DNA of 64,000 bases from positions 29,259 through 93,258 of the forward strand of contig CAIZLW010000082.1 of assembly GCA_903933915.1 (NCBI GenBank). The letters are read 5' to 3'. The notes under the pieces were generated by a model that was not told where the DNA came from, did no database searches, and saw only the letters and a list, made by a program, of their open reading frames with translations. This DNA comes from an uncultured beta proteobacterium (GTDB lineage Bacteria > Pseudomonadota > Gammaproteobacteria > Burkholderiales > SG8-41). The position numbers and the translations under genes were made by a program. This document shows positions 43,011 to 44,027 of the stretch, one piece after another (the first letter of the stretch is position 1; every line of letters begins with the position of its first letter).

Positions 43011-43264
43011 TCGAATCCAATATATGTAATACCGGGTCCCGGCGTTGCCTGGGAGGCGACAGGGAATTTTTCAGGAATAGCAGCGCAAGCTGCTGTTTTC
43101 GTTTAGTATTCGGCCCACGCGATTGTGTCAGCAGTGGGTATCGTGAGGTGCTTGCAGTGGATCGCAGCGTCCCGGGTGTCAACTAATAAGCTGTCTGCGC
43201 GTTTTTCGGTTCCAGTGGCCTTATCGGTCGCCGTGTTCCAAATTTAATTTTTGAGGATTTTAAA

Positions 43265-43444
43265 ATGACCAAACTGTTCGCCGCCATCATCGCCGCTGCT
43301 TTCGCCACCGTTGCTGTTGCCCCGGCATTCGCGCAAGAAGCCAAGAAAGACGCTCCGAAAGCTGAAGCCAAGAAAGACGCTCCGAAAGCTGAAGCCAAGA
43401 AAGACGCTCCGAAAGCTGAAGCCAAAAAAGAAGACAAGAAGTAA
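43265..43444 (+). CDS. 59-aa secreted Lys/Ala-rich repeat protein, copy 1 (absent from the supplied ORF track)
   Basis: ATG at 43265, TAA at 43442-43444: MTKLFAAIIAAAFATVAVAPAFAQEAKKDAPKAEAKKDAPKAEAKKDAPKAEAKKEDKK; signal peptide and three KKDAPKAEA units. Confidence 0.8.
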   Translation: MTKLFAAIIAAAFATVAVAPAFAQEAKKDAPKAEAKKDAPKAEAKKDAPKAEAKKEDKK

Positions 43445-43462
43445 TCTTCTTTCGCTTCATGA

Positions 43463-43489
43463 AGGCAGGGCTTATGCCCTGCCTTTTTT
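43463..43489 (+). terminator. Rho-independent terminator after repeat-gene copy 1
   Basis: AGGCAGGGC-TTAT-GCCCTGCCT plus T-run. Confidence 0.9.
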
Positions 43490-43776
43490 ATTGCCATTGC
43501 CTGTTTTATCGCAATCAAGGCTCTGTTGAGCTGCAGCCCCGGGATTGCGGCCTGCGGGCGCCGTCGGATGGCTGACGATTTGCTGAATATCCGCACAAGC
43601 TGCTGATTTCGTTTAGAATTCGTGGCGGCAAACCAGCCGATAACTCGGGGGCCGGCAAACGCTGAACCGGCGTTGTAAGCCAAGTGTCAACGAGCAGGGC
43701 TGTTTGCGCGTTTTAAGCTTCCAGTGACTGCAATCCAGTCGCGGAATTCCAAACTTAATCTTTGTGGAGATTTAAA

Positions 43777-43965
43777 ATGACCAAAATTTTCGCCGCTATT
43801 ATCGCTGCCGCTTTCGCCGCTGTTAGCTTTGGTGCCATCGCCGCCAAGCACGAAGATGGCATGAAGAAAGATGCTCCGAAAGCTGAAGCCAAGAAAGACG
43901 CTCCGAAAGCTGAAGCCAAGAAAGACGCTCCGAAAGCTGAAGCCAAAAAAGACGACAAGAAGTAA
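43777..43965 (+). CDS. 62-aa secreted Lys/Ala-rich repeat protein, copy 2
   Basis: MTKIFAAIIAAAFAAVSFGAIAAKHEDGMKKDAPKAEAKKDAPKAEAKKDAPKAEAKKDDKK; same start, repeats and 3' flank as copy 1. Confidence 0.82.
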   Translation: MTKIFAAIIAAAFAAVSFGAIAAKHEDGMKKDAPKAEAKKDAPKAEAKKDAPKAEAKKDDKK

Positions 43966-43983
43966 TCTTCTTTCGCTTCATGA

Positions 43984-44009
43984 AGGCAGGGCTTATGCCC
44001 TGCCTTTTT
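43984..44009 (+). terminator. Rho-independent terminator after repeat-gene copy 2, same stem-loop as copy 1
   Basis: AGGCAGGGC-TTAT-GCCCTGCCT plus T-run. Confidence 0.9.
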
Positions 44010-44027
44010 CATTTCCGAATCCGGTTT

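Follow-up and report, generated by a model that had tools for sequence, protein, structure and literature searches.

Two very short open reading frames lie next to each other in the window, which is the whole 64,000-nucleotide stretch of DNA from an uncultured beta proteobacterium that was analysed. Each reads as a small exported Lys-rich protein, and each follows a leader with blocks common to both. The locus raises the question of whether these are real genes, what their leaders do, and what purpose such peptides might serve.

Two tandem micro-genes and their mosaic history

Both micro-genes are confirmed as real, with all features described here on the + strand. ORF1 (43265..43444) encodes a predicted exported Lys-rich protein of 59 aa and ORF2 (43777..43965) one of 62 aa, and a TTG 15 nt upstream of ORF2 would give an alternative product of 67 aa. 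The predicted signal peptides (~43265-43333 and ~43777-43845) are followed in ORF1 by three KKDAPKAEA repeats (43349-43429, 27-nt units starting at 43349, 43376 and 43403) and in ORF2 by three counterparts (43870-43950, units starting at 43870, 43897 and 43924). Ribosome-binding site sequences are found at 43253..43257 (GAGGA) and 43766..43769 (GGAG). A pattern search places terminators at 43461..43486 and 43982..44007; the region has 10 terminator-like sites vs 1.7 expected. The 53-nt 3' segment, with terminator, that the first-pass annotation had quoted occurs exactly twice, at 43436 and 43957, and the adjacent ORFs and triple repeats that it had described are present at these positions. It is noted that a further terminator-like hairpin, AGCAGCGCAAGCTGCT with a T run, lies at 43074-43099 overlapping the distal conserved block of copy 1, and may mark the end of the upstream tctC-like gene.

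The proposed tandem duplication is borne out by the spacing of the copies and their leader blocks, about 510 nt apart. Of 20 same-genus genomes, 19 have homologues, in many cases as tandem copies, so that the arrangement is not a matter of chance. They also occur in many genomes of the family, and the ORF together with its leader blocks is kept through the order. The result that the first-pass annotation had named as refuting, a lack of such conservation in related genomes, is therefore not what is seen. Relatives with the window type of leader share the window's neighbours, a TctC-like gene upstream and a HupE-like gene downstream; in the loci read they carry a single copy, vs two in the window. 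A tblastn search of plasmids gave no match. A second pair is present on another contig of the source genome (G000:C77), and the locus of this class lies in several relatives between what we take, from the translations, to be rluE and nudJ-mnmA, beside icd or aceB. The second gene of this pair (G000:C77:22363-22494, and likewise in relatives L047, L050, L052, L069 and L070) codes for another kind of short exported protein, which contains a Cys motif (..VDCKDAKNKDHKDCK..), and has a sigma-70-like promoter, TTGTCA-N17-TAATGT, in place of the ECF motif described below. At another locus (L104, genome G016) the promoter and leader are intact and the ORF is in a shifted frame without a signal peptide, possibly a pseudogene or a sequencing error.

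The tail of copy 1 with its terminator (43343..43506, 164 nt) is 95% identical to its counterpart in copy 2 (43864..44027), compared to 63% for the leaders (-190 to -1) and 68% for the signal-peptide coding part, as expected from the earlier suggestion that the tails were homogenised and the rest had diverged. The signal peptide, which had been described as shared, is related between the copies but not identical. The copy 1 leader is 87% identical to that of the single orthologue in genome G013, with only 65% identity in the signal-peptide segment; copy 2 shows the reverse, 62% in the leader and 93% in the signal-peptide segment. The copy 1 signal segment is in turn 87% identical to the C77 paralogue. 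Because these identities cross over, the copies are read as mosaics drawn from two paralogue lineages, in which the repeat and 3' end have been homogenised. The simplest cause of this pattern would be recombination between the tandem copies.

Leader blocks and the 5'-terminal hairpin

The upstream blocks reported at similar distances from the two start codons are indeed conserved, at 43086/43596 (CAAGCTGCTG.TTTCGTTTAG.ATTCG), 43177/43685 (TGTCAAC) and 43210/43719 (TTCCAGTG). The distal block of copy 1 (CAAGCTGCTGTTTTCGTTTAGTATTCG, 43086..43112) is kept in relatives and shared with copy 2 (CAAGCTGCTGATTTCGTTTAGAATTCG, 43596..43622). It contains a -10-like hexamer, TAGTAT in copy 1 and TAGTAT, TAGAAT, TAAGAT or TATTAT across relatives. 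A pattern search found no consensus sigma-70 promoter at the copy 1 distal block, which could possibly be an extra promoter with TAGTAT as its -10-like element.

The proximal blocks resemble a promoter of a different type. In copy 1, a predicted ECF -35 element TGTCAAC (43177..43183) lies 16 nt from the CGTT of a predicted -10 element CGTTTT (43200..43205); in copy 2 the same elements (43685..43691 and 43709..43714) are 17 nt apart. The consensus of this candidate promoter is TGTCAACC-N15-CGTTA. Both window versions (TGTCAACT-N15-CGTTTT in copy 1 and TGTCAACG-N16-CGTTTT in copy 2) are off consensus, with CGTTTT for CGTTA, T or G as the eighth base and, in copy 2, the spacing of 17. Among upstream regions picked by protein homology alone, 34 have a distance of 16 nt from TGTCAAC to CGTT, 6 have 17 nt and 1 has another length. 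The eighth motif base, which was unforced in the wider scans, is C in 79%. The spacer of 15-16 nt is unconserved in sequence and fixed in length. ECF sigma promoters are characterized by fixed spacing, an unconserved spacer and an AAC/CGTT pair, and for these reasons the conserved leader blocks look mainly like an ECF-type promoter, with a predicted UTR of only about 55 nt. The first-pass reading of the leader as a long structured 5' UTR is not upheld; what would be transcribed is this short UTR with a short hairpin.

When same-genus genomes were scanned for TGTCAACN16CGTTA, most contained about one exact site, located in the loci read in front of these peptide genes, with few control matches. 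In 200 genomes of the order there were 98 motif sites vs about 61 for the reversed pattern by our own count. Chance sites must be mixed in, since this excess is modest and about half of the exact sites do not precede such peptide genes. Pooling all sites fetched in the wider scans gives 118 distinct ones, of which 66 are followed at 72-148 nt by a small exported ORF of low complexity, rich in Lys/Ala/Pro/Glu/His, compared to 0 in the mirror control. By our own tally, promoter and peptide gene occur together in 46 genomes from 20 families of the order sample. Other recurring targets downstream of the motif are cytochrome c, helix-hairpin-helix and EF-hand-like proteins. The cytochromes include small periplasmic ones in four genomes of different families (L103, L143, L147, L197), and in four genomes the motif stands upstream of an unnamed protein of ~92-94 aa (MGSLSNESFEEFLESLK..) with no Pfam match (L169, L181, L188, L189). 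Literature searches on the motif, on DUF3619 with a sigma factor and on MXKDX proteins returned only the Brucella and Azospira systems as relevant, and the main text of a C. metallidurans start-site paper contains no such motif.

A hairpin is located at the predicted 5' end of each mRNA, GTGGCC-TTATC-GGTCGC (43215..43231) in copy 1 and GTGACTG-CAATC-CAGTCGC (43724..43742) in copy 2, in which the G-U pair of copy 1 is A-U. Directly downstream of the -10 element, 86 of 90 leaders can form a stem of 5 or more pairs; 66 different stem sequences are represented, and the 5' arm falls mostly at +35 to +38. Giving each leader the 3' arm of another destroys the pairing: the mean hairpin score drops from 9.52 to 5.95 (at most 6.54 over 200 trials), and shuffling lowers it to 4.51. 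The mean folding z of the leaders is -2.0, and the window-type leaders keep the hairpin with compensated two-sided changes. The covariation that had been proposed as a check on the leader in relatives is hence found in this short hairpin. Since it sits at the predicted 5' end, the hairpin may protect the mRNA. The E. coli ompA mRNA carries a stabilising 5'-terminal hairpin, which is similar in that a stem-loop stands at the extreme 5' terminus of an mRNA that is abundant and codes for an envelope protein; it differs in that the stem sequence is free to vary in the leaders described here.

Same-genus leaders of type A (e.g. L047, L052, L058) have an additional second hairpin and a perfect palindrome, GGTTGATCAACC, just 5' of the ribosome-binding site. 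We dropped the idea that TGTCAACC pairs with the GGTTGA palindrome, as such pairing is not conserved beyond the type-A leaders, being absent in window-type and other-family leaders.

Candidate sigma factor, peptide families and alternative readings

The source genome encodes several ECF factors, one of which (G000:C166) lies directly before a DUF3619 gene. Both window copies have TGTCAAC-N16(17)-CGTT upstream, and the genome carries this candidate cognate sigma factor with its DUF3619 gene. Of the 200 genomes from the order, 147 carry ECF-DUF3619, as do 45 of the 46 with promoter and peptide gene (hypergeometric 1.8e-6, a value without phylogeny correction and confounded by phylogeny). The sole exception is G001, where promoter and genes are present and neither the sigma factor nor DUF3619 was found in the assembly. 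Outside the order, the motif precedes four gammaproteobacterial ECF genes whose products are 36-49% identical to C166. Compared against five ECF sigma factors of the source genome (C166 and four others), they match C166 best, at 100-150 bits vs at most 54 for the others. In the three operons tested, the genes next to these ECFs score 31.1, 23.3 and 16.7 bits for DUF3619 (cut-off 22.2). The presence of the motif before orthologous ECF genes in Gammaproteobacteria is the strongest argument for the sigma-promoter match, and the sigma factor reading these promoters is probably ECF-DUF3619. No paper naming DUF3619 together with a sigma factor was found in the literature searched.

Further gammaproteobacterial motif sites precede exported charge-rich repeat, His-rich, LTXXQ/Spy-like and DUF4382-like (lipo)proteins, where the LTXXQ name comes from a sub-threshold profile match and the other names from a reading of the sequences. 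Exported proteins of RGDRIDERLD-type repeats also follow the motif there (L276, L283, L284, L292, L296, L300).

The mature peptides of the window have 36 and 39 residues, a net charge of +4, and 0 and 1 hydrophobic residues; the one of copy 1 contains no Met and that of copy 2 a single Met. Across the peptide set, length and sequence vary, net charge per residue is always positive and hydrophobics are few, figures which are partly circular as the ORF filter selects on composition. The earlier comparison to Asr holds for loose composition (small, exported, basic and repetitive, rich in Lys/Ala and predicted to be disordered) and does not reach family level. The Asr model NF033636 (cut-off 50 bits) gave no match to the window copies at E<=1, the best Asr score among promoter-linked proteins of the order is 36.1 bits, and the promoter here is ECF-type. 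The MXKDX family (MrpX-BcrX, TIGR02953, cut-off 41 bits) is similar in consisting of small exported repeat proteins under ECF sigma control, and two orthologues pass its model at 49.6 and 41.9 bits; the nearly Met-free window copies, in contrast, stay below the cut-off (20.2 bits for copy 2, none for copy 1), and promoter motif and anti-sigma differ. Pfam gave sub-threshold matches only. By the tests run, Asr and MXKDX proteins would be analogues of these copies and not their families.

These likenesses bear on whether the pair could belong to the Asr or MXKDX/MrpX type, function through methionine or acid chemistry and be controlled by an already known system (PhoB/RstA-like or SigF/NrsF). 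The passing orthologues and the 36.1-bit protein speak for it, as does Brucella, where the ECF16 sigma factor BcrS directs expression of an MXKDX protein during exposure to HOCl (PMC8315932). The ECF16 system (SigF/NrsF; BcrS-AbcS in Brucella) resembles the present one in that its ECF sigma factor has, as core target, a small repeat protein that is exported. It was rejected here, as NrsF (PF06532) is absent from the genome, and its motif, (T/C)GTAAC-N17-CGAA (PMC8315932), differs from TGTCAACC-N15-CGTTA. With the window proteins below both family cut-offs and nearly without Met, we consider this explanation quite unlikely.

A promoter that is real and ECF-type could also be read by an ECF factor other than ECF-DUF3619, given that the genome has several others, that G001 lacks ECF-DUF3619, and that no motif was found before the sigma gene itself in the Burkholderiales loci read. 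The autoregulation-like sites in the four gammaproteobacterial operons and the 45/46 co-occurrence argue against it and make it unlikely. Alternatively, the leader might be mainly an RNA regulatory element (a riboswitch, thermosensor or sRNA target), with TGTCAAC and CGTT as RNA parts. This would agree with a covarying hairpin after the blocks and with the second hairpin and GGTTGATCAACC palindrome of type-A leaders, which could pair with TCAACC. However, the pairing is limited to those leaders, the distance between the blocks is fixed over unconserved sequence, and the same blocks are found before ECF sigma genes and before unrelated genes for exported proteins. A search of the window and eleven leader loci against Rfam 15 found nothing except tRNAs, with no leader at gathering score. 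The RNA-element explanation is distinctly improbable.

A proposed ECF-DUF3619 regulon

We propose that both genes belong, as duplicates, to a conserved ECF-DUF3619 regulon making exported Lys-rich protective peptides, a reading to which we assign a probability of about two in three. The C166-type sigma factor would bind and read TGTCAAC(C)-N15/16-CGTTA-like promoters once the hold of the DUF3619 membrane protein, the presumed anti-sigma factor, is lifted by an envelope signal. RNA polymerase would then start about 55 nt before the ATG, producing an mRNA with the short hairpin, probably protective, at its 5' end and a strong terminator at the other. The product, a signal peptide followed by 36-39 residues of a disordered, net-positive, Lys-rich polyampholyte, would be exported to the periplasm and most likely act there in bulk, with Asr/LEA-like protection by buffering, anti-aggregation or scavenging. 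Our best guess of a protective periplasmic polyampholyte with a bulk envelope-protective role is suggested by the persistent positive charge and low hydrophobicity, which are partly an effect of the selection filter, and by the Spy-like and charge-rich exported proteins that accompany these peptides.

Evenly balanced, in our judgement, is the broader proposal of an undescribed ECF sigma/DUF3619 stress system, found throughout the Burkholderiales and in other Gammaproteobacteria and devoted to exported disordered charge-rich peptides, in which the peptide sequence drifts freely against a constant set of promoter, 5' hairpin, signal peptide and terminator. ECF-DUF3619 is among the most widespread alternative sigma factors of the order and apparently unstudied, and the promoter motif with its core target set makes its function directly testable. 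Short low-complexity exported peptides of <60 aa are a class missed by annotation, and such genes can be found by promoter and 5' hairpin rather than by protein sequence.
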